Below, in pieces: positions 1 to 41,195 of a stretch of 41,195 nt of DNA. The stretch's first letter is position 1, and each line of letters begins with the position of its first letter. Location of the stretch: the IMG/VR virus record IMGVR_UViG_3300042451_001373, positions 1-41,195 of that record; one strand, given 5' to 3'. The DNA comes from a virus. The notes beneath the pieces were generated by a model. The model did not search any database and had not been told where the DNA came from. It saw only the letters and a program-made list of their open reading frames with translations. Made by a program: the position numbers and the translations under genes.

Positions 1-79
1 CGATTGGCACGCCGCCACCGGAGCCTGCTTTGATACCGTTCCTCTCACCCTCGCCCACAAACTCCTCAACCCCACCTAA
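1..79 (+). CDS. tfuA: C-terminal end of the TfuA-like protein (gene continues from the right edge)
   Basis: An open frame from base 2 reads 25 codons (DWHAATGACF to LLNPT) and stops at 77-79. Base 1 completes the split codon left at 41194-41195 (AT+C, Ile), so the TfuA frame at 40618 continues without interruption and would give a 218-residue protein, a reasonable size for the family. The next gene starts only six bases after this stop, as expected inside an operon. The join is inferred from frame and context; this tail alone has no recognisable motif. Confidence 0.7.
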   Translation, partial: DWHAATGACFDTVPLTLAHKLLNPT

Positions 80-85
80 TCCCCC

Positions 86-574
86 ATGCAATACGCCCCC
101 GCCGTCACCGACCGCTCTGCCGAGATTTACGCCCAAGGAGCCAACAACGCCGCCAACCTCCGCGCCCAAGGAGTCGCAAACATGCAGAACTCCCTCACCT
201 CCTCGTTCAACACCGTCATGGGCATGGTCAATAAGCGCGTCGAACAGAACAATCAAGACAACGCCAAGATGGAGCAATCCATGGCAAGCGGCCAAGCCAT
301 GATGAGCCTCTCCGACAACTACGGAGAGCAAGGCGAAAAATTCAAAACCTCCCTAGCTAAAGCTCTCGAAGAAACCAAAGGCAACGCCAACAAAATGTCC
401 GGCGCAGTCATGGCCCACGCCGCTGAGTTTGAAAACATGCAGAAACAGCAGACGGTCAAGAAGCAATACGAAGCTCTTGGAGCCGCCTACACTCAGAAAG
501 CTGCCGTTCGAGGAACTTCCAATCCCGCCCTCTCGGTGGAGGTCGCTGATGGGGTTGACATCTGGCAGGATTGA
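86..574 (+). CDS. Probable internal virion protein, helical, unknown function
   Basis: This encodes a 162-residue hydrophilic protein rich in Ala, Gln, Asn, Met and Lys, with no membrane segment or signal peptide. The middle (about residues 30-130) looks like long amphipathic helices. I recognise no family by sequence. It starts six bases after the TfuA stop (across the presumed circular join) and is followed by two larger genes of the ejection-protein type. By position it resembles the small helical internal virion proteins of podoviruses. That role is inference from gene order only. Confidence 0.6.
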   Translation: MQYAPAVTDRSAEIYAQGANNAANLRAQGVANMQNSLTSSFNTVMGMVNKRVEQNNQDNAKMEQSMASGQAMMSLSDNYGEQGEKFKTSLAKALEETKGNANKMSGAVMAHAAEFENMQKQQTVKKQYEALGAAYTQKAAVRGTSNPALSVEVADGVDIWQD

Positions 575-596: not shown

Positions 597-1586
597 ATGG
601 CCTCCCCCTCACAAAGCGATTACTCCGGCCCTCTTCCGTCGGCGGACTTGGACCCGAACGGCATTCTTCCAACCGGCAACGCGCTCATGACTGTCGTTCC
701 CAACGAGCCTGCCACAGCACAGCAACCTGTCGGCAGCGCGATGGATGCCATGGACGGGCAGGAAGAGGAGCCATTGGATAACCTGGCTGCACAGCTTGCC
801 GCAGGGAAACGCATTCGCATTACCAGCAAAGAGCAGTGGTCTAAAATGTCTCCCCACCAAAAGGAAGTCGTTCGTGCTGCCATGTCTTCCGGCGGTCAAA
901 TTACCTCCAACAATGCTGTGCGCATCTACCAGGACAGCGTGAAACGCTCCCGCGCCAACCAGGTGCAGACCGTATCGTTACCCGATGGCCGCACGGTGTA
1001 TTTTGCAAATGGCCAGCGAATTGAAGCAGATAAACAACCGGAGCCGGTCAAACGCGAGATCAGGGAAACGGCTGACGGCTTGCGAGCTATTGATCCCCTC
1101 ACCGGAGAATCATTCCAAGTTTACGATAAATACTCAGGCTCCGCTGTAACTGGTAAGCCCAAAATCTCGGAAGACAACCGAGTGCAGTTTAACCAGGCGC
1201 ACATCGAGCTTCAGCGCATTCAAAGCGAATTGAATCAAGTCAACGCTATTCCGACTAATAAGAAAGTGACCCAAAACGACAATGGAATGTGGGTTCCTTC
1301 AGATAGTTTTTTTGGAGGAGAAAACCCAGAGAAGGTTAAAGCGCGATTGCTCAAGGATGCGGATTATCAAAGCGAGAAAATCCGCAAGATCGACCCAACC
1401 AACTCGGTGAGCGCAGCGGCCGCCTCGCAACCCGCCCCTACGCCACAGGCTACGCCATCCCCAACACCGAACCCAACACCTCGTCCAAACCCCATGCCTA
1501 CTCCTGACAACTTTATCGTCGGCAGAACCTACACAGACGCCAAGGGCAACAAGGCAGTCTATCAAGGCAATGGAGTTTTTAAATGA
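597..1586 (+). CDS. Probable virion protein with Pro/Thr linker and short C-terminal repeat-type domain
   Basis: The 329-residue protein is hydrophilic. Residues about 275-300 form a Pro-Thr-rich linker (alternating PTP, PNP). It ends in a short module with the pattern GRTYTDAKGNKAVYQGNG, a kind of C-terminal motif that recurs in phage and secreted proteins. A middle part (about 190-230) is probably coiled coil. No Shine-Dalgarno sequence is visible before the ATG. Its stop overlaps the start of the giant gene by four bases (ATGA), so the two are translationally coupled. A role as an internal virion or ejection component is inferred from this coupling. Confidence 0.65.
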   Translation: MASPSQSDYSGPLPSADLDPNGILPTGNALMTVVPNEPATAQQPVGSAMDAMDGQEEEPLDNLAAQLAAGKRIRITSKEQWSKMSPHQKEVVRAAMSSGGQITSNNAVRIYQDSVKRSRANQVQTVSLPDGRTVYFANGQRIEADKQPEPVKREIRETADGLRAIDPLTGESFQVYDKYSGSAVTGKPKISEDNRVQFNQAHIELQRIQSELNQVNAIPTNKKVTQNDNGMWVPSDSFFGGENPEKVKARLLKDADYQSEKIRKIDPTNSVSAAAASQPAPTPQATPSPTPNPTPRPNPMPTPDNFIVGRTYTDAKGNKAVYQGNGVFK

Positions 1587-4500
1587 GTTTCGATCCCTCC
1601 ACAGCCGTCCTTCTCGAAGAGGATGCCCCGGCATTTGACCCCACCACTGCCGTCCCTCTTGAGGAGTTTGATGTTTCCTCTGCTGTGTTGGTCGAGGAAG
1701 ACCCCGCACTCCCAGCCGCCGTGCCATCCCCTGTGCCGCAACCGGACGAGGCGATTGATTTCCTGCGCGATGCCGAACGCAACGGTCAAGCCGCCGACGA
1801 CCAAGGTATAAAGGAAGGTATCTTTCCCCAAGGCAGCACGCCGTGGAAGACCCTCGACGGCCGTCTCTACATCGACCCCGCCCGCTACAACATGGCCGTG
1901 GAGCAAATGTGGAACCTCGGCGTGATCGACTCCACGAACTACACCGAACTCCTTAAAGGCACGGTGGACCAATGGGACGAAGCCAGCCAGAGCTACATCC
2001 CCAGCGTCGAGAAAGCCACCGCCGCACGCCGCGACCTCGAGCGCCGTGCCGGTGCATTCCCCGAAGCAAAGGCCGCCGCCTCCGGCCTCCTCAAGGGAGC
2101 CATGCAGACGGGAGCCGCCCTTGTCGCAGGCCCGGCCACCGCCGCTCTTACTTTCCCCACCGGCCCCGGCGCTATTGGCGTCGGCATCCTCGCAGGCACA
2201 GGCACAGCCATAGGTGTGGGAGCGGCCTACGACAAAGCCCTCAAAGCCTCAGCCAAGGAGAGCGAACTACTCGATAGCTTCTACGCCGCCAACCAACTCG
2301 CCCCTGGCTACAACTCCGCCGGCCAACTCGTCTCGATCCTCGCCCCGACTCCGGTCTCGGTCTCGCGCCTGGCTAACGCCGCCAACCTAATCCGCACCGA
2401 GAAGGGCGGAGCCGAAGCCGCCAAGTTTATCAGTGGAGCCCTCGGCACTGGAGCCTCCATAGGCGTGGGAACGGATGTCGCAATCCAAGCCGCCAACATC
2501 GGCCTGGATAAACTCATCCACCCCGAGATCAACCCCCTCATCGCCGCCGAGCAATACCGCCAGACAGGCCAGCAACCGCCGCAACGCCCCGAGTTTGACC
2601 CCGCCAGCACAGCCATATCCGGCACCCTCGGCGCACTCACCGCAGGCATCGGCGTGAAGGCTCGCAATAAAACCTACGCCCCCGAGGAGCTTGTCACCCT
2701 GGAAAACCAAGTCCGCACCGGCCGTGCCAGCCGACAAGAAGCGGAGGACTACAATGTCATGCGCCAAGCGGTGCAAACCCTCCGCGCCGACGAACGCCTC
2801 ATCGACGCCCAAGCCATCCGCCGCGCCACCGTGGACGCCGCAGGCTTCCGCTTCCTCGACACCACCGAGATCATCAACCCCCGCTTCCAGCAAGCCGCCC
2901 TTGCAGACGCCGGATTTACCCCCCGCCCAAGCCAACCCGCCATTCCTTATGCCACCGAGAATCCCGTAGCCGCCATCCCACTCCAAGGCCAACCCGCCAC
3001 CTACACCGGCCAAGCGTTCCTCAACCGTGGCGGCGCAGCGCCAGCCTTCCAAGGCGGCAGCAACGCCCTGCCTGGCCCCGAAGGAATCCAAGCCTTGCCA
3101 GGACCGGCCGCAGTTAACCCACAAGTTAACCCGCCCGATACCTTCGACCCTTCGACTGCGACCGAAATTCCCCCAACGGCCTCTGCTCCCGTAGCAAGCA
3201 CACTCACAGCGCCTGCATCAACAGGCTCACCCGAAGTGATCGCCGGGGAGGGGGCCTCTGTTTCCAAGCCCAAGCGCCGGTTCCCTCGCATATCCTACGA
3301 TCCCGGCACCTTTCCCATCCTCTCCGCCCTCCAAGAATCTCCCGTGCGCACCAGCGCCAGCGGCAAAGCAGGCGGGGAGAATGACAACTGGAATGAAATA
3401 CGCCGCACCGGCAGGCACTTTGCCGAGACGCACCGCTCCACCGGCACGCCCTACGATGTGCGCGCCCAGGAACTCTACGACCAAGGACTGATCGCCGACC
3501 CATATCCCGACACCCTATTCAACGCCTACATGGCCGAGGTGAACAGCTACCGGCAACTCAAGGATGGCGACCCGCAACAAGCCGAATACGACAAGCTGCA
3601 AAAGCAATACGACAATTTCTCGAAAGCCGCCCTCGACCCATCCGACTCCAAGAAAGCGAAGCTGCAACCTATCTCTGCAAACTCGCTACAAATCGGCGAC
3701 AAGGTAAAGATCGGCGACGAGTGGCTCAATGTGAAAGCCATCGACCCCGAGACATTCACCATCTCCCTGCAAGACGGCACAAAATTTGGCCTCCAGAAAG
3801 TGGAAGACGGCACGCAAATGTGGGTGCAGGAAGCCGAGCTCGCCGCCCCGCCCACCGGCGACATAGACAACTTCTTCGGCGAACCCATCGACACGCCTGC
3901 CCCTGCCAAGCAGGACGATCCTTTCTCCGGCAATATCTTTAGCCCGTCCGAAATGCCATTCAGCCTCGACCGCCCGGTGCTGGATGACAGCCTAACAATT
4001 CAACGCGAAGCCGACGAAGCCAAGCGCCAACAAGCGGCCTACGAGGAAGCGCAAAAGGGACAAACCAAAATGGCATTTGCCGACGCCGGGCCGCCCGCTA
4101 AATCCTCCCGCAGCGGCAGCAAGACCATGGCCGACGCAGGCCCGCCCACCCCCGTCATCCCAGCCGGATCCACAATCCCCAAGCCCGCCCTCGAAACCTA
4201 CAACGACGCCCAGGTCTTCGCCGACTACCCCGATGCCGTCGGCGTAGTGCGGGCCATGAATGGCACCTGGACGATGCCGCTCATCCTTGGCGGCCTGGAC
4301 AAGGTGCCGGTGGTGGAGATGCCCGAGGCCGTGGAGTTTGTCAAAGCCCTCTCCGGCGGCAGCCCCACGGTGCAAATTCCTCGCAAGCGGAATGCGCTGG
4401 GGAGCTTCAGCCCGAACGGCCAAGGCGTCATCACCTTGCACCCCGACCTCATCAAAGCCGGTGGCGAAGCCTCGGCCATGATGACCTTCATGCACGAGAT

Positions 4501-7500
4501 CGGGCATAACATCCAATTCATGGATGATTTTAAGATGGAGAAGGGGAATCTCCTGGGAATCATTTCTGGAAACCCAACGCTCAAGCACAGCATCCCGCTC
4601 GATCCTAACCCCGCGCCGGTGGAAGGCTGGGCCTACAGCCAGCAACCCATCACCAGCAAGCAACGCGAGAACATCCGCAAGAAAGCCGAGGCCGACCTCC
4701 GCGCCTCCCTCGAAGGCGAGGTGCGCAAGGTGATCGTCAACGAGCCCATCTACGCACAAAGCGGAGTCACCCCCGAGATCGTCAAAGGACTCTTCGGCCT
4801 CGACGCCCGCGAGCAGTGGCCGGAACTCTACGATTGGTTTGCTCGGCAGGACGGAGCCACCAAAGCCAACATCGTCAAGCAGGCTATGAAGGGAATCCTC
4901 GACGCCCGCCTGGCAAAGTTCCAAGTGCAAGGCGCTCAAATCGGCACCAACACCCGCGAGGAAACGCAGACCGTCGGCGGCCGCGAGCCCACCCAAGACG
5001 AACTCCGCGAAGCCTTCCACGCCGCCATGCGCAGCGAGATGAACGCCCGAAATGTGGCCGACCTCAAATACATCCGCCAAGAACTCATCGACCTGACCAA
5101 ATGGTGGAAGCCCTTCGACATTACCCGCGCCACCCCCGAGCACCTCGCCTACCGATTCAGCCCCGAGGAACTCTTCGCCGACGCCATGAGCGTGCTGCTC
5201 AACAGCCCGGCTGACCTCAAAGCCCGCGCCCCGATTTTCTACGACACCTTCTGGAACAACCTCGACTCCCGCCCCCAAGTCAAAACCAAGCTGGCAGAAA
5301 TCTACGACCGCATCAGCAAAGGCCGCGACGCCGTGCTGGATAAGCGCCTCGCCCGAGACATGGAAGCATTCAAAGCCGGTGCCGAGATTTTCATTAGCAA
5401 AAACGCCGCTGCTCAAGCCCGCCGCGCCAGCCTCACCGGATGGTGGGAGAATCTCAAAGACCAGTATTGGAATATCTACCAGCCGATCATTGATTCTGCC
5501 GCAAAGGCTCGCGCTGCCGGGAAGATTACGCCAGCCCAGGAGGACAGCATCCGCTGGCTCACCGAGGAGCATCCGCTCGCCGAAAGTAAACTCCAAGTCA
5601 AACTGGCCGACATAGGCCGTCTCTACCAAAGCCTCGATGCAGCCGGTGTAGCCCGCGAAAACTTCGGCATCTTTCTCAAATACCACCGCATCGCCAATGA
5701 GCGCCTCGAAGTAACCCGAGAGATCGACGGGCAAATGGAAGTCGTCGGCGAGACCGGCCGCGCAGTCATGTTCAACCCCGGCGGCGAGACAGACCGGACG
5801 GCAAGGGAGGCGCTTGCCAGGCTGCAAGCAACGCTCGGCCCCGAGGGCTACGCCGCGCTGGAAACCGCAGTGAGCGGCTTTCGTGATGTCATTTATTCCA
5901 TCATGGAAGACGCAAATCAGTCCGGCCTATTCTCAGCAGAGCTGTGGAAGACGATCAGCACAAACAAGGACAACTACGCCGCGTTCACTCCGCTGGAATA
6001 TGTCCAAGAGTATCTTCCTTCAACGATCCGCAAGCAGGTAGGCACCTTCAAGGAAATCGCCGACCCTCTCCAGCAAACGGTGCTCAAGGTCATAAGTATC
6101 CACCGCGCCGCACAGAACAACAGGTTCACCCGAGAAGCCGTGCGGGTAATCAGGCAAACCTCGCCCGAGCTCGTCACCACTGCGCCCATGAAATACAACG
6201 GCAAAACCATGGAGCCGCAGCCTCCCAAAGATTCGGCATTGTCTATGGTGGAGTGGAAAGTAAATGGCCAGCGGGTGGGCGCTCATATCCCCAAACGCTA
6301 CGCCGCCATGTGGGAAGACAAATCCCCCGCCGAGCGCGATGCGATCCTGCGCCTGCTTTCGACGGGGTTTCAACGCCTCGTCTATGGGGCCATCATTCGC
6401 TACAACCCAGCCTTTCAGCTTTTCATGTCTCCCGCCCGCGACTTGCAACGCTCGCTCACCAACATGCCAGGCGGCATCAAAGGCCGAGCAAGGTTCCTCA
6501 TGCGCCTCCTCGACCCCGAGGCTTGGGGAGCGTCCATTGATTGGGCACAAGGAGATGTAGGAAAGACTCAACTCATGCGCGAGATGGTAGAGAGCGCCGC
6601 CACGGGTGGTCCGCACTCGGCCTTCGGTGGACGCATGGGAAGCAATGATGACAGCATCGATGCCATCCTGCGGAAGTTTCACCTTCAAGATTCCAAGAGT
6701 CGTAATCTTTTAACCAGGGCAATCATGGGTCCGCTGAAAGCCATCGAGTTTGCAGGGCAGATTCTCCAAATGCTTCCCAAGGCGTCGGCCTACAAGGTGC
6801 TGGTCAAAGACATGGGAATGCCCGCGCCGCAAGCGGCCAACACGATCCGCAACCACATCGGCATCCCCAACTACTACAAGAAAGGCCGCCACGCTCAATC
6901 AGCAGGGGCCATTGTGCCGTTCCTCAACATTTTTCTCCGCTCCTACGAATCGCTCCAACGCAATTTCCGTGGTGCCGAGCGCAACATGAACGCCAAGGAA
7001 TGGTGGCTCGCCTGGCTTTTCACCGGCGGCGGCCTCATAGCCGTGCTGCAAACCCTCGCCAAGGAAGGCGTCCTCGGCGAAGAACTGCAAAAACTCTACT
7101 CCCGCGTGCCGAACTGGGACATGACCAACTTTGCCGTCATTCCCCTGGGGAATGTCTCCACCGGCGACACCGGCGGCAAGACAGCCTACCTCCGGTTGCC
7201 GCAAGATGAAGGGCTGCGCGTCATCAATGGCGTGGTCGGCAAAGTCCTAAGCGCTTCGATTCGCTCCGCCAAAGGCGACCCCACCGCGCCACAACTCGGC
7301 GATGTCTTCGCAGGCATCAGCTCGCAAGTGCCAGGGCAAAACACGCTCATCGAGGTCGGCCAAAACTGGACAACTTTCTTGGCTGGCAGAAACCCACGCG
7401 ATGATTTCCGCAACCGCAACATCCTCTCCGAAGATCAATGGCTCGCCGGGGGATGGGAAGCCACCAAGCCCATGCTCGGCTGGACCCTCGGCGCCACCGG

Positions 7501-7903
7501 CATCACAAACTTCTTCAACTACGACACCGAGGCCGACACCCTCACCGAAATGACAATCAGCGCCACGCCGGTGTTGAATAAATTTCTCAAGATCAGCGAC
7601 AGGGGAGTTTACCAAAACGATCTCAAGCTGAACCAGGCCGACGAACGCGACATGGCCAAAGTGCGCCTCTCGCTGCCGGATTTCGTCAACGGGCTCCGCA
7701 CCGAATACAACTACCTCAAAACCCGCAGCGAACAACGCAGCGAGCGGGAAAATGACCGCTACCTGCAACTCGGCGCATGGAACCGAGCCTACCGAAACGC
7801 CATGGACGAAGTGGAAACCTCCATGGAACTCGGCAACCGCTCAAGCGCCCAAAGCGCCATCCGCTCCCTCGTCCAAGAAAGCAAATACTACAAGCAACGC
7901 TAA
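1583..7903 (+). CDS. Giant (2,106 aa) large polyvalent / ejection protein with HEIGH zinc-peptidase motif
   Basis: At the N-terminus are three imperfect repeats of an FDPSTAV..EE motif, seen at the start of many phage large polyvalent proteins; related copies recur near residue 525. Residues about 168-217 form a long Gly/Ala-rich hydrophobic stretch that could enter a membrane. A zincin motif, HEIGH, is at 971-975, and a later EELFADAM segment (about 1195) could supply a glutamate third ligand. A second hydrophobic stretch lies near 1805-1830. The rest is mostly helical, including an R/E/N/D-rich region near the C-terminus. Length and position fit the giant internal proteins that podoviruses eject with their DNA; a peptidase could act on peptidoglycan peptides or on host or virion proteins. 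Its stop overlaps, tail to tail, the stop of the integrase gene. Confidence 0.75.
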   Translation: MSFDPSTAVLLEEDAPAFDPTTAVPLEEFDVSSAVLVEEDPALPAAVPSPVPQPDEAIDFLRDAERNGQAADDQGIKEGIFPQGSTPWKTLDGRLYIDPARYNMAVEQMWNLGVIDSTNYTELLKGTVDQWDEASQSYIPSVEKATAARRDLERRAGAFPEAKAAASGLLKGAMQTGAALVAGPATAALTFPTGPGAIGVGILAGTGTAIGVGAAYDKALKASAKESELLDSFYAANQLAPGYNSAGQLVSILAPTPVSVSRLANAANLIRTEKGGAEAAKFISGALGTGASIGVGTDVAIQAANIGLDKLIHPEINPLIAAEQYRQTGQQPPQRPEFDPASTAISGTLGALTAGIGVKARNKTYAPEELVTLENQVRTGRASRQEAEDYNVMRQAVQTLRADERLIDAQAIRRATVDAAGFRFLDTTEIINPRFQQAALADAGFTPRPSQPAIPYATENPVAAIPLQGQPATYTGQAFLNRGGAAPAFQGGSNALPGPEGIQALPGPAAVNPQVNPPDTFDPSTATEIPPTASAPVASTLTAPASTGSPEVIAGEGASVSKPKRRFPRISYDPGTFPILSALQESPVRTSASGKAGGENDNWNEIRRTGRHFAETHRSTGTPYDVRAQELYDQGLIADPYPDTLFNAYMAEVNSYRQLKDGDPQQAEYDKLQKQYDNFSKAALDPSDSKKAKLQPISANSLQIGDKVKIGDEWLNVKAIDPETFTISLQDGTKFGLQKVEDGTQMWVQEAELAAPPTGDIDNFFGEPIDTPAPAKQDDPFSGNIFSPSEMPFSLDRPVLDDSLTIQREADEAKRQQAAYEEAQKGQTKMAFADAGPPAKSSRSGSKTMADAGPPTPVIPAGSTIPKPALETYNDAQVFADYPDAVGVVRAMNGTWTMPLILGGLDKVPVVEMPEAVEFVKALSGGSPTVQIPRKRNALGSFSPNGQGVITLHPDLIKAGGEASAMMTFMHEIGHNIQFMDDFKMEKGNLLGIISGNPTLKHSIPLDPNPAPVEGWAYSQQPITSKQRENIRKKAEADLRASLEGEVRKVIVNEPIYAQSGVTPEIVKGLFGLDAREQWPELYDWFARQDGATKANIVKQAMKGILDARLAKFQVQGAQIGTNTREETQTVGGREPTQDELREAFHAAMRSEMNARNVADLKYIRQELIDLTKWWKPFDITRATPEHLAYRFSPEELFADAMSVLLNSPADLKARAPIFYDTFWNNLDSRPQVKTKLAEIYDRISKGRDAVLDKRLARDMEAFKAGAEIFISKNAAAQARRASLTGWWENLKDQYWNIYQPIIDSAAKARAAGKITPAQEDSIRWLTEEHPLAESKLQVKLADIGRLYQSLDAAGVARENFGIFLKYHRIANERLEVTREIDGQMEVVGETGRAVMFNPGGETDRTAREALARLQATLGPEGYAALETAVSGFRDVIYSIMEDANQSGLFSAELWKTISTNKDNYAAFTPLEYVQEYLPSTIRKQVGTFKEIADPLQQTVLKVISIHRAAQNNRFTREAVRVIRQTSPELVTTAPMKYNGKTMEPQPPKDSALSMVEWKVNGQRVGAHIPKRYAAMWEDKSPAERDAILRLLSTGFQRLVYGAIIRYNPAFQLFMSPARDLQRSLTNMPGGIKGRARFLMRLLDPEAWGASIDWAQGDVGKTQLMREMVESAATGGPHSAFGGRMGSNDDSIDAILRKFHLQDSKSRNLLTRAIMGPLKAIEFAGQILQMLPKASAYKVLVKDMGMPAPQAANTIRNHIGIPNYYKKGRHAQSAGAIVPFLNIFLRSYESLQRNFRGAERNMNAKEWWLAWLFTGGGLIAVLQTLAKEGVLGEELQKLYSRVPNWDMTNFAVIPLGNVSTGDTGGKTAYLRLPQDEGLRVINGVVGKVLSASIRSAKGDPTAPQLGDVFAGISSQVPGQNTLIEVGQNWTTFLAGRNPRDDFRNRNILSEDQWLAGGWEATKPMLGWTLGATGITNFFNYDTEADTLTEMTISATPVLNKFLKISDRGVYQNDLKLNQADERDMAKVRLSLPDFVNGLRTEYNYLKTRSEQRSERENDRYLQLGAWNRAYRNAMDEVETSMELGNRSSAQSAIRSLVQESKYYKQR

Positions 7904-37921: not shown

Positions 37922-38286
37922 TGCTCCCCTGGGAACGCGCCCGCAACTGGCATGACGACAACACCACCGAACCATTCGAATCCCTCCTCGCCTGGCACAT
38001 GGCCCACGGCCTCGTTTTCAACACCCCGCAAGTCTTCCTCCTCGCCCACGAAATCCACTACTCCCCGGATACCAACACCATGACCTACGACCTCCCCCCC
38101 AACGCCTGGTTTGTCGAGCTGGCCGCCTCGGTCGGCCACGCGAACCCAGTCCGCGAATTTCTCCGCGTCGCCACACACCCCCAAGAGTGGGCCATCTGGC
38201 ACCGCCGCAATTCTTTCCAACCCCACGCCTACCCATGGTCCAAACTCGCCCGCCGTGTTGGTTTCATTGAAGGGAGGGTGTCCTAA
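37921..38286 (+). CDS. Hypothetical small virion-region protein (121 aa)
   Basis: Aromatic-rich (WERARNWHDDNTTEPFESLL, HYSPDTNTMTYDLPPNAWF) with a basic C-terminus. No family is recognised. It starts on the stop codon of the fibre gene and ends on the start of the next virion gene (TAATG overlaps on both sides), so it is made in step with them. Confidence 0.6.
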   Translation: MLPWERARNWHDDNTTEPFESLLAWHMAHGLVFNTPQVFLLAHEIHYSPDTNTMTYDLPPNAWFVELAASVGHANPVREFLRVATHPQEWAIWHRRNSFQPHAYPWSKLARRVGFIEGRVS

Positions 38287-39461
38287 TGGGAGGTTCCTCA
38301 GCATCTAAACCCAAGGAACAAAAAGCGCCGCCACAAGCGCAGCCTATCGACTACGGCGCTTTGATGGCGCAATCGCGTGGAGCCGCTAAAGAAGACTACC
38401 GCGACCAGCTCAACGCGCAGATCGAAGCCTATCCGAAACTTGAAGCCCTTCAGCTTGGCACGATTAGCAAACTCTCCGATAGCCTCTCTGGCAACAACAA
38501 CGCCTACACTCGCCGCGCTACCGACCAGCTCATCGCCGCCGAAGACCAAGCCAACCAACTTGGCCGCATCGGCGACTACACCGAGCAACTCGGCTACCAA
38601 GCCGCCCGCGACCTCGAAGGCACCGACATCGAGCGCGAGCTTCAACGCCAAGCCACCAGCGAACTCGCTCTAGGCCGCGCCCTCAGCCCCGAGCAGGAGC
38701 GCCAAGCCACCCAGCAAGCCCGCGCCGGAATGGCCGCTCGTGGCCTTGGAGTTGGCACCGGAGCCCTCGCCGCAGAAGTCCTCAACCGCGACGCCTACGC
38801 CTCCCAACGCGAGGCAGACCGCCGCAACTTCGCAGGCTCCACTAATCAAATGCTCGTCGGCAACCGGCAAAACCGCATTGGCCAAGTCGGCAACATCCTC
38901 GGCCAGTCTGCCAACACCAGGATGAACCAAGCCAACCTCCGCAGCAGCCTCGCCGGAGCCAACATCACCATCGACCCCTACGCCCGCGCCATGAACCCCG
39001 CCCTCGGCATGGGAGCCAGCACCCTCGGCAACTCCGGCCAAATGATCGGCAACACCTACTCAAACGCCACGCAGATGGCCGGGAATGTCGCCGGGGTCAA
39101 CGCCTCCATGCTGGATTCCCGCTGGAACACGGTGCAAAACAACAACGCTTCTCTGCAAAGCTCTTACATGTCGGCCAAGGCCAGCGACAACGCCGCGAAT
39201 ATGGGCCTCCATGGAGCAGCCATGGGAGCCAGCGCCGTCATCGGAGCCGCCGCTGCCGCCTGCTGGGTAGCCCGCGCCGCCTTCGGCACGGCCACTACTC
39301 GTTGGGTGGAATACCGCCGCGCCATGCTACGCCATGCCAGCGACCGCACGATACGCCTCTACTGCCAGCACGGCCAATCCATCGCCGCCGCCATCACCAC
39401 TCCACTCCGCCGCCTCATCGCCCGCCTCACGCTCCGCACCCTTCAATGGTCTTGGAACTAA
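38286..39461 (+). CDS. Probable internal virion (ejection) protein with CWVAR C-terminal motif (391 aa)
   Basis: The N-terminal 45 residues are polar. Most of the chain is helix rich in Ala, Gln, Asn and Gly (about 60-320). Near residue 325 there is a short Ala-rich hydrophobic run, then CWVARAAFGTATTRWVEYRRAM and a basic tail; this Cys-Trp-Val-Ala-Arg module is a C-terminal type I recall from other phage internal proteins. Position and composition suggest an ejectosome component. Its last 16 bases overlap the YcaO gene, so the two are translated together. Confidence 0.65.
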   Translation: MGGSSASKPKEQKAPPQAQPIDYGALMAQSRGAAKEDYRDQLNAQIEAYPKLEALQLGTISKLSDSLSGNNNAYTRRATDQLIAAEDQANQLGRIGDYTEQLGYQAARDLEGTDIERELQRQATSELALGRALSPEQERQATQQARAGMAARGLGVGTGALAAEVLNRDAYASQREADRRNFAGSTNQMLVGNRQNRIGQVGNILGQSANTRMNQANLRSSLAGANITIDPYARAMNPALGMGASTLGNSGQMIGNTYSNATQMAGNVAGVNASMLDSRWNTVQNNNASLQSSYMSAKASDNAANMGLHGAAMGASAVIGAAAAACWVARAAFGTATTRWVEYRRAMLRHASDRTIRLYCQHGQSIAAAITTPLRRLIARLTLRTLQWSWN

Positions 39462-40621
39462 CAGAAAAAATCCGACTCGAAGGAGCCCACCGCGCCTGCA
39501 CTCCAGAGCAAACGCTGGAGCGCATGCGGCCGCATTTTCACGCCGCAGGCATTACCCGCCTCGCCGAGATCACCGGGCTCGACCGCATCGGCATCTGTGT
39601 CGCCCAGTGCATCCGGCCCGATGCCATAGTGCTGGCCGTGGATTCCGGCAAAGGAGCCACCCCCGCCGCAGCAAAATGCTCGGCCATGATGGAAGGCTTT
39701 GAGCGCCATGTCGGCGAAACCAGCCGCCCTCGGCACATACTTGCCACCGCAGCGCAGCTCGGCGACAAAGCCGAGACACGCCTGCCGCTTTCCAAAGGAG
39801 CTGTCTTCCATCCCCCCGCTCTTATGCCTTGGACCGAGGTGCGCGGCCTACAAAGTGGAGCCGCCCGTATGGTGCCCACCGACACCGTTCGCCTCCTCGC
39901 CCGTCCAGACCCCGCCCCGCTTACCAGCCTGCCATTTGCCTACACAAGCAACGGCCTCTCCTCTGGCAACACCTACGCCGAAGCCGTCGCCGGTGGCCTC
40001 TACGAATGCATCGAACGCGACGCCACAGCCATCGCCCAGCACAGGCTACAAGATTTTCCCCGTGTCGATCTCGACACCATCACCGACCCCACCGTAGCCC
40101 GGCTCGTCCGCACACTGCGAGACGCCGACATCACCCCTGTGCTCCTCGATGTCACCAGCGACATCGGCCTGCCCACCTACATAGCATATCTCATCGATTG
40201 CGAGAGCGGCTGCGGAGTCAATAAAGGCTACGCCGCCCACCTCGATCCAGCCGTGGCCCAAGCCCGCGCTCTCACCGAGACCATTCAAGCCCGCGCCGTA
40301 TGGATCGCCGGGAGCCGCGACGACTTCCTCCACGCCCGCTACGAGAAGGTCAAAGCCACCGACTCATCTGCTATCCTTGCCCGCCTCTACAAACACGCCA
40401 CCACCAGCGCAAACGCCCATCCCGACCGCTCCGGCGACACCTTTGAGGCAGACATAGACACCCTCCTCGATTTCCTCGATGCCGCAGGTATCCCCGAGCC
40501 ACTCGTCTATGAGTTCACCCACGACTACCCATGCAGCGTCGTGCGAGTCATAACCCCTACGCTGGAAGGCTACACCTTCGACTACTCGCAACCAGGCCAC
40601 CGCGCCAAAAGGGCTAAATGA
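39446..40621 (+). CDS. ycaO: YcaO-domain protein (TfuA-associated), 391 aa
   Basis: The ATP-binding motifs of the YcaO family are present in order: SGKGATPAAAKCSAMMEGFER (67-87, with Glu83 and Glu86), TSNGLSSGNTYAEAVAGGLY (168-186) then ECIERDA (187-193), RALTETIQARAVWIAGSRDD (274-293), and a VVRVITPTLEGY end (365-376). YcaO enzymes use ATP to activate a backbone amide. With a TfuA partner they introduce thioamides (as in McrA thioglycine and thioamide peptides). The frame is open upstream to 39302, but the ATG at 39446 gives the family's normal N-terminus. The stop overlaps the TfuA start (ATGA). No precursor peptide lies beside it. Confidence 0.9.
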   Translation: MVLELTEKIRLEGAHRACTPEQTLERMRPHFHAAGITRLAEITGLDRIGICVAQCIRPDAIVLAVDSGKGATPAAAKCSAMMEGFERHVGETSRPRHILATAAQLGDKAETRLPLSKGAVFHPPALMPWTEVRGLQSGAARMVPTDTVRLLARPDPAPLTSLPFAYTSNGLSSGNTYAEAVAGGLYECIERDATAIAQHRLQDFPRVDLDTITDPTVARLVRTLRDADITPVLLDVTSDIGLPTYIAYLIDCESGCGVNKGYAAHLDPAVAQARALTETIQARAVWIAGSRDDFLHARYEKVKATDSSAILARLYKHATTSANAHPDRSGDTFEADIDTLLDFLDAAGIPEPLVYEFTHDYPCSVVRVITPTLEGYTFDYSQPGHRAKRAK

Positions 40622-41195
40622 AAATCTTCCTCGGCCCCACACGCCCCGCAAATATCCCCGCTGATGCCAACCTCCGCCCCCCGGCACAGCAAGGCGACAT
40701 CGCCGCCGCCGCTCTCGAAGGTCCAGATACCATCCTTTTAATCGACGGCCTCTTTCACCAAAGCCTCGCCCCCTGGCACAAGGAAATCCTCTTCGCCATC
40801 GAGCAGGGATGCCGCGTCATAGGCGCAGGCAGCCTCGGCGCACTCCGGGCCGTCGAGTGCGCCCGCTACGGAGCCGAGCCTGTTGGCATCATCGCCGGGT
40901 GGTATGCCGAAGAATCCTGCACCGACGATGCCGATGTAGCCCTCGCTCACGGCCACGCCGAAGACGGCTACCGCGCCCTCTCCATTCCAATCGTCAACCT
41001 CCGCGCCACCGCCGAGTGCCTCGTCGCTGACGGCCTCCTGCCAGCAGCCGACCTTGCAGGCATTCTCTCCACAGCCCGCAGCATCTACTATGTCGAGCGC
41101 ACCTGGCCTCGCCTGCGCCAAGCCCTCGGCCCCGTAGCAGACCTCCTCCGCGAGAACTACCGCGACCAGAAAGCCCTCGACGCCGAGGAATCCAT
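40618..41195 (+). CDS. tfuA: TfuA-like protein, N-terminal part (gene continues at base 1)
   Basis: The TfuA core is clear: IFLGPTRP at the start, LLIDGLFHQSLAPWHKEILF (40-59), GCRVIGAGSLGALRAVEC (64-81), then GWYAEESCTDDADVALAHGH and IPIVNLRATAECL. TfuA proteins work with YcaO to insert sulfur into a backbone amide, possibly by delivering it. The first 192 residues are in this window; reading across the edge into base 1 adds 26 more and a stop at 77-79, giving 218. The start overlaps the YcaO stop (ATGA). Confidence 0.9.
   Translation, partial: MKIFLGPTRPANIPADANLRPPAQQGDIAAAALEGPDTILLIDGLFHQSLAPWHKEILFAIEQGCRVIGAGSLGALRAVECARYGAEPVGIIAGWYAEESCTDDADVALAHGHAEDGYRALSIPIVNLRATAECLVADGLLPAADLAGILSTARSIYYVERTWPRLRQALGPVADLLRENYRDQKALDAEES

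Follow-up and report, generated by a model that had tools for sequence, protein, structure and literature searches.

The window, i.e. the whole stretch of DNA analysed here, spans 41,195 bp and corresponds to a virus record that IMG/VR classes as linear. It represents a phage genome that is circularly permuted, close to complete and broken inside tfuA: contig L001 is 100% identical to both window ends and bridges a gap of 360 bp (L001 6103-6462), and the circular permutation and the near-completeness of the window, with 360 bp missing, are deduced from this double match. L001 6463-6541 is identical to window 1-79 and represents the 3' end of tfuA; the full gene comprises 338 codons (338 aa; L001:5525-6541), of which the right end of the window holds 192. 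A circular join of the window ends was discarded as proof of a complete tfuA; the open frame across the join is misleading, and L001 reveals the 360-bp gap. The locus comprises the following features.

38286..39461, plus strand: virion protein (ejection-type, gp14-position), 391 aa, directly 5' of ycaO; proposed substrate
39213..39260, plus strand: Ala/Val-rich uncharged tail GAAMGASAVIGAAAAA, residues 310-325 of the virion protein; proposed thioamidation site, from the A+V separation and concordant pairs
39261..39458, plus strand: C-terminal CFI-box-like domain CWVARAAFG..., residues 326-391; four-helix C-terminal unit (AlphaFold2)
39446..40621, plus strand: YcaO, putative ATP-dependent backbone-amide-activating enzyme, 391 aa (PF02624)
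40618..41195, plus strand: 5' part of tfuA, 192 codons (PF07812; full gene from L001)
1..79, plus strand: 3' end of tfuA, last codons DWHAATGACFDTVPLTLAHKLLNPT and stop, past the 360-bp assembly gap (L001 identity)
86..574, plus strand: next virion-block gene after tfuA, 162 aa (directly 3' of tfuA in L001)
597..1586: virion-block gene after the 162-aa gene (order the same in L001 and relatives)
1583..7903, plus strand: protein of 2106 aa; from its position, probably a large internal or ejection protein belonging to the block

The last 16 bp of the virion gene at 38286-39461 are shared with ycaO, and ycaO and tfuA are joined by an ATGA overlap with the tfuA start at 40618. The order behind tfuA (86-574, 597-1586, 1583-7903) is the same in L001 and in relatives, and the location of the pair inside a virion block, as proposed from the sequence alone in an earlier reading, is borne out on both flanks. 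Family profile searches gave no family match of note for the 162-aa protein (86-574) and no match for the 2106-aa protein (1583-7903).

YcaO (39446-40621) covers the entire PF02624 profile (1-325 of 325; 221.5 bits, E 2e-65, cut-off 25.7), and its best solved relative is MJ1094 of a methanogen (6pe3; E 2e-23). Residues S67-G70 (SGKG), E83, E86, E91, E187, E190, R191 and Q281 are invariant in 10 viral homologues, in agreement with the complete ATP site that the sequence-only reading had described; the ATP/Mg site is conserved. The TfuA core, also described as intact, is matched over its full length (PF07812, 1-119 of 119; 117.6 bits, cut-off 30). Structure prediction, as recommended earlier, served for TfuA, whose predicted fold matches TfuA 6xp8 (Foldseek; E 1.4e-12, TMt 0.77), but not for the body of the upstream protein, which was poorly predicted (single chains). 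The phage TfuA has a helical C-terminal half (residues ~184-338) that is covered neither by the Pfam TfuA domain nor by the solved 217-aa archaeal TfuA.

YcaO and TfuA are encoded together by adjacent, overlapping genes, as in thioamide-forming systems. The McrA-glycine equivalog cut-offs are not reached (TIGR03266, 197 of 365 bits; NF033432, 128 of 235 bits), the uL16-type YcaO model NF040716 gives 49.6 bits for the window YcaO against a cut-off of 700, and the similarity to the azoline-type TOMM_cyclo_SagD is weak (104.5 of 219 bits); with scores under the McrA-, uL16- and azoline-specific cut-offs, the phage pair therefore represents a branch of its own.

Scans of IMG/VR yielded 61 loci for YcaO, 11 for a distant YcaO clade and 79 for TfuA; 181 viral locus entries carry a near-full YcaO, some contigs having been fetched more than once, and 29 viral YcaO lineages are distinguished at 80% identity. 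A search of viral genomes for adjacent YcaO and TfuA, as had been advised, thus found them in many uncultured lineages, and no tblastn match to YcaO, TfuA or the CFI domain was obtained in 50,697 cultured-phage records; the carriers of YcaO-TfuA are a widespread, uncultured group of bacterial viruses. Contamination of the assembly with host DNA, raised earlier as an alternative, is contradicted by the 61 IMG/VR loci with a related YcaO and by the phage genes on the same record (DnaB helicase, terminase, major head protein, tail collar protein and integrase). Among cellular YcaOs, the nearest one found, from Azospirillum, shares 42-44% identity, and the viral YcaOs fall into well-supported clades; independent capture of the enzyme by viral clades A and B was considered and found unsupported, a common origin not being rejected (AU p 0.53 and 0.21). 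None of 80 cellular YcaO loci has an adjoining CFI box. On an uncultured alphaproteobacterial contig (L134:7578-11849), a possible RiPP precursor of 93 aa precedes two tandem YcaO genes and TfuA.

The same virion gene is located directly 5' of ycaO in 26 of the 29 lineages, usually overlapping it. In L049 and L051, ycaO-tfuA is unlinked, being surrounded by early genes and read from the other strand; the relocated early-region genes in the record of L049 (L331:15959-18081) still form an overlapping pair.

The window record contains no ThiS gene. In relatives with a YcaO that is ~86-89% identical, an 88-aa ThiS-family protein (PF02597, 34.3 bits, cut-off 22.5; ThiS/MoaD matches in the PDB) is encoded between ycaO and tfuA, and it ends in ...TAFAGG or ...NAFAGG, i.e. 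with a C-terminal Gly-Gly; a ThiS/MoaD-like gene in this place was found in 34 locus entries (e.g. L019:11170-11436). This gene of the relatives, located outside the window, is the strongest chemical clue, since a ThiS-like carrier in the operon suggests sulfur, and hence thioamide, chemistry. In an archaeal system the sulfur passed on by TfuA comes from thiocarboxylated ThiS; the sulfur carrier for the window phage is presumably made by the host. Work cited in PMC8153245 shows that sulfide reaches an archaeal YcaO through its TfuA. L028, L042 and L052 encode an extra 72-aa orphan protein ahead of the ThiS-like gene, and in another clade small Cys-pair (zinc-ribbon-like) proteins of 85-101 aa are encoded between ycaO and tfuA (L423:4667-4924, L422:4523-4828).

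A YcaO that forms azolines, or some other product of this enzyme family (for instance at the conserved Cys), would fit the weak TOMM_cyclo_SagD similarity and the Cys that directly follows the tail in CFI-bearing lineages. This reading is nevertheless very improbable in view of the TfuA partner, the ThiS-like carrier in relatives, and the CFI-less lineages without a Cys at the tail end; further, no ThiF/E1-type azoline partner was found in 10 records, with no PF00899 match in the window record, and this missing partner is evidence against the azoline route. The assignment as a thioamide-type pair, proposed in the sequence-only reading, thereby gains support from both the carrier and the missing partner.

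The body of the upstream protein is variable across lineages (338 to 977 aa), and the protein ends in a 'CWVAR' CFI-box-like domain in 22 of the 29 YcaO-positive lineages. For the window protein, AlphaFold2 predicts a helical, low-confidence body and a folded C-terminal four-helix unit (pLDDT ~75-85), and models residues 306-323, which connect a long helix to that unit, as coil of low confidence; this coil may be compatible with enzyme access, as weak evidence. A fold search of the PDB gave only coiled-coil-like matches without significance. A T7 gp14-type location, ahead of large internal proteins, fits the gene order, and PHROG 4287 'DNA ejection protein' gave a weak match, for the E-type relative L234 only; from gene order and this one match in a relative, we infer that the upstream protein belongs to the virion and occupies the position of the T7 gp14-type ejection protein.

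The C-terminal domain is named CFI-box-like, its scores being under the cut-off of CFI_box_CTERM (NF041770; 40 bits): the relative L045 scores 20.3 bits and the window protein gives no match, and for the CWVAR/CFI-box-like domains scanned no Pfam, PHROG or NCBIfam model scored above cut-off. Domains of this kind are very common in uncultured phage virion proteins, on unrelated bodies (L200-L319). Of the ordinary CWVAREVYG loci, 85 have 1.5 kb or more of sequence on the downstream side, and YcaO is present in none of them.

The possibility that the CFI-box-like domain itself, with its CWVAR motif, is the substrate draws on its position and divergence. The CFI gene lies directly 5' of ycaO in those 22 lineages, and the module boundary falls at the box: in DNA comparisons of the window type with L016, L003, L007 and L015, identity is 0-33% ahead of the CFI border, jumps to 93-99% there and remains high across ycaO-tfuA. 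Between L109 (YcaO-positive) and L273 (YcaO-negative), identity is 85% for the upstream gene, 82% for the body and 32% for the CFI box; for L109 versus L273, L214 and L280 the body is 79-82% identical and the box only 32%, whereas the boxes of YcaO-negative pairs are 83-95% identical. L109 has the ycaO-tfuA pair precisely at the junction of two virion genes which are direct neighbours in L273. The CFI box as a necessary substrate is, however, weakened by CFI-less YcaO-positive viruses (L398-L400, L407, L408, L423), in which the gene stops at the start of the box and the enzymes are kept; four lineages (L398, L407, L408, L423) have thus lost the box, and the box of L049 is of the ordinary E-type. 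A rule for box residue 6 (E in YcaO-negative, A in YcaO-positive phages) first seemed strict and was broken by a TfuA-led sample, in which YcaO-positive boxes with E occur (CWLARECFG, CWVARECLG); YcaO-negative phages with A also exist, and no box residue tracks YcaO strictly. On this evidence the box is an unlikely substrate.

Thioamidation of another virion protein of the block, i.e. the 162-aa or the large protein, whose genes come directly after tfuA, is very unlikely. These proteins are 46% and 25% identical between L109 and L273, compared to 44-47% and 23-26% between YcaO-negative phages; unlike the C-terminus of the upstream protein, they are no more divergent than in pairs of YcaO-negative phages.

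The feature common to the YcaO-positive lineages with an identifiable upstream protein is an uncharged, Ala/Val-rich stretch in the ~12-20 residues before the Cys (or the stop), e.g. GAAMGASAVIGAAAAA ahead of CWVAR in the window, VVGATAAGAA ahead of CWVAR in L114, and TIAAAAAVVAAL ahead of the stop in L398; the CFI-less YcaO-positive lineages finish in the same kind of tail. Over 12 residues, the mean A+V fraction is 0.66 in 26 YcaO-positive lineages and 0.22 in 56 YcaO-negative representatives, with an AUC of 0.999 that is partly post hoc, since the tail came to light on inspection, once two earlier ideas had failed (the CFI box as substrate and the E-to-A rule for residue 6); semi-independent checks of the tail are confined to L266, L389, L392, L393 and L419. 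The controls show no such separation (AUC 0.45 for the upstream body, 0.64 for the CFI domain). Without dereplication, an A+V fraction of at least 0.50 is found in 191 of 191 YcaO-positive loci, and the median in 125 YcaO-negative loci is 0.25; six of these 125 also reach at least 0.5 in the 12-mer, and in the YcaO-negative records with the highest Ala tails no unlinked YcaO was found, these metagenomic records being often partial and the YcaO-negative ones often fragments.

L049, with its unlinked ycaO-tfuA and ordinary E-type CFI box, was left out when the tail signature was found and serves as a held-out case. Its CFI gene (L266) encodes the tail VGAAGAAAAAAI, which has the highest A+V fraction among 131 E-type and control tails. 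L208, a close relative of L049 (body ~86% identical), has the tail IGGALGAIGGIF in an otherwise nearly identical stretch, and no YcaO is present in its 38.9-kb record.

On a tree of the bodies, with tail and box excluded, YcaO and the tail each change seven times; enzyme and tail agree in 7 of 7 independent pairs on the best tree, four of which are on starred (well-supported) branches. The sign test gives p 0.125 for the starred-branch pairs, which, being only four, cannot reach 0.05; the seven best-tree pairs would give 0.016. The YcaO-positive viruses are confined to a few clades, and the preference of these phages for an Ala-rich segment could have a different cause. The coupling of tail and enzyme is a computed result, as are the genes, their families, the conserved operon and the ThiS gene. 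The suggestion from the sequence-only reading that a virion or ejected protein may be the substrate is strengthened, in that the tail segment switches with the presence of the enzymes and the same gene lies 5' of ycaO in most lineages.

The same reading had also proposed a host protein modified during infection, an option for which no positive support was obtained. A host protein (e.g. ribosomal or for defence) as the target, with the pair merely sitting in a late operon, has in its favour that host targets of YcaO exist, uL16 being thioamidated by YcaO in E. coli (PMC13063428), and that the L049/L051 cassette is among early genes. This explanation is an improbable one: in nearly all lineages the pair belongs to a late virion operon whose genes overlap, and the virion-protein segment is coupled to the presence of YcaO, even in L049.

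We consider it fairly probable that the upstream virion gene, ycaO and tfuA constitute a protein-modification module, which would thioamidate the Ala/Val-rich tail ahead of the CFI-box-like domain. YcaO would bind ATP and activate backbone amides, TfuA would deliver sulfide from a ThiS-type carrier in its thiocarboxylated form (a phage product in some relatives), and backbone oxygen would thereby be replaced by sulfur. The best-supported target would be the uncharged Ala/Val stretch just before the CFI-box-like domain (GAAMGASAVIGAAAAA-CWVAR), with GASAVIGAAAAA as the candidate modified stretch of the window tail; several residues of the tail are probably modified, as in thioamitides, and modification may occur during or after translation from the same operon. 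The thioamidation itself, the exact residues and the role in DNA ejection are what we infer from the comparisons above; the most likely benefit would be a more lipophilic, protease-resistant, membrane-entering segment of the ejected protein.

Adjacent YcaO and TfuA genes are also found in thioamitide RiPP clusters (thioviridamide; thiostreptamide S4, with TsaH as YcaO and TsaI as TfuA), where, as in the phage tail, an Ala-rich substrate segment is present with a Cys further on (PMC8153245). The pair iteratively thioamidates the hydrophobic, Val-Met-Ala-rich run of the thiostreptamide S4 core, and thioamides protect against proteolysis and hydrolysis (PMC8153245); the phage tail resembles such Ala-run cores. 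The phage segment differs in that it lies within a virion protein of 391 aa (up to ~980 aa), with no separate leader-core precursor, and no dehydratase, macrocyclase or export genes were seen in the phage. The absence of a precursor-peptide gene, remarked upon earlier, holds insofar as the window ycaO operon contains no small precursor-like gene and is flanked by virion genes; it does not hold for the adjacent virion protein, which itself has a core-like, Ala-rich tail.

In methanogens, YcaO-TfuA thioamidates McrA at Gly465 (TIGR03266/NF033432), i.e. a whole protein rather than a peptide (PMC5589413), as proposed here for the phage; the two families are the same and include the closest solved structures (6pe3, 6xp8), whereas the phage pair is viral, scores well under both equivalog cut-offs and has another substrate context. 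The E. coli YcaO-uL16 system is likewise a protein-backbone modification (PMC13063428), in contrast to which the phage YcaO is paired with a TfuA and its proposed target is Ala-rich and apparently unstructured. For uL16, reconstitution in vitro from ATP and sulfide has been achieved. CFI-box-CTERM proteins and podovirus ejection proteins share with the phage protein the C-W/F-V/I-A C-terminal domain and the position in the tail-ejection block; the phage domain differs by scoring under the NCBIfam cut-off, and its ordinary CWVAREVYG relatives are without YcaO-TfuA in the 85 loci covered.

For the group as a whole, the evidence tips somewhat towards phages that use YcaO-TfuA, some with their own ThiS, to (poly-)thioamidate a membrane-type segment rich in Ala within one of the virion proteins that they eject. 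No relevant report of YcaO-TfuA in phages or of thioamides in virions was found in the openly licensed literature, and protein thioamides are very rare, with only McrA and the ribosomal protein uL16 being named (PMC13063428, 2026). If true, a virus-particle protein would be the third class of thioamide protein, after McrA and uL16, and a thioamitide-like backbone modification would be built into the virus particle in many uncultured lineages; viruses would thus apply backbone chemistry of the RiPP type to structural proteins of their own. The predicted thioamide site in a virion protein is open to direct testing, and the viral loci provide a range of simple, naturally occurring YcaO-ThiS-TfuA enzymes with which thioamides could be introduced into proteins; the modification would also offer a handle on the survival and membrane entry of ejected phage proteins.
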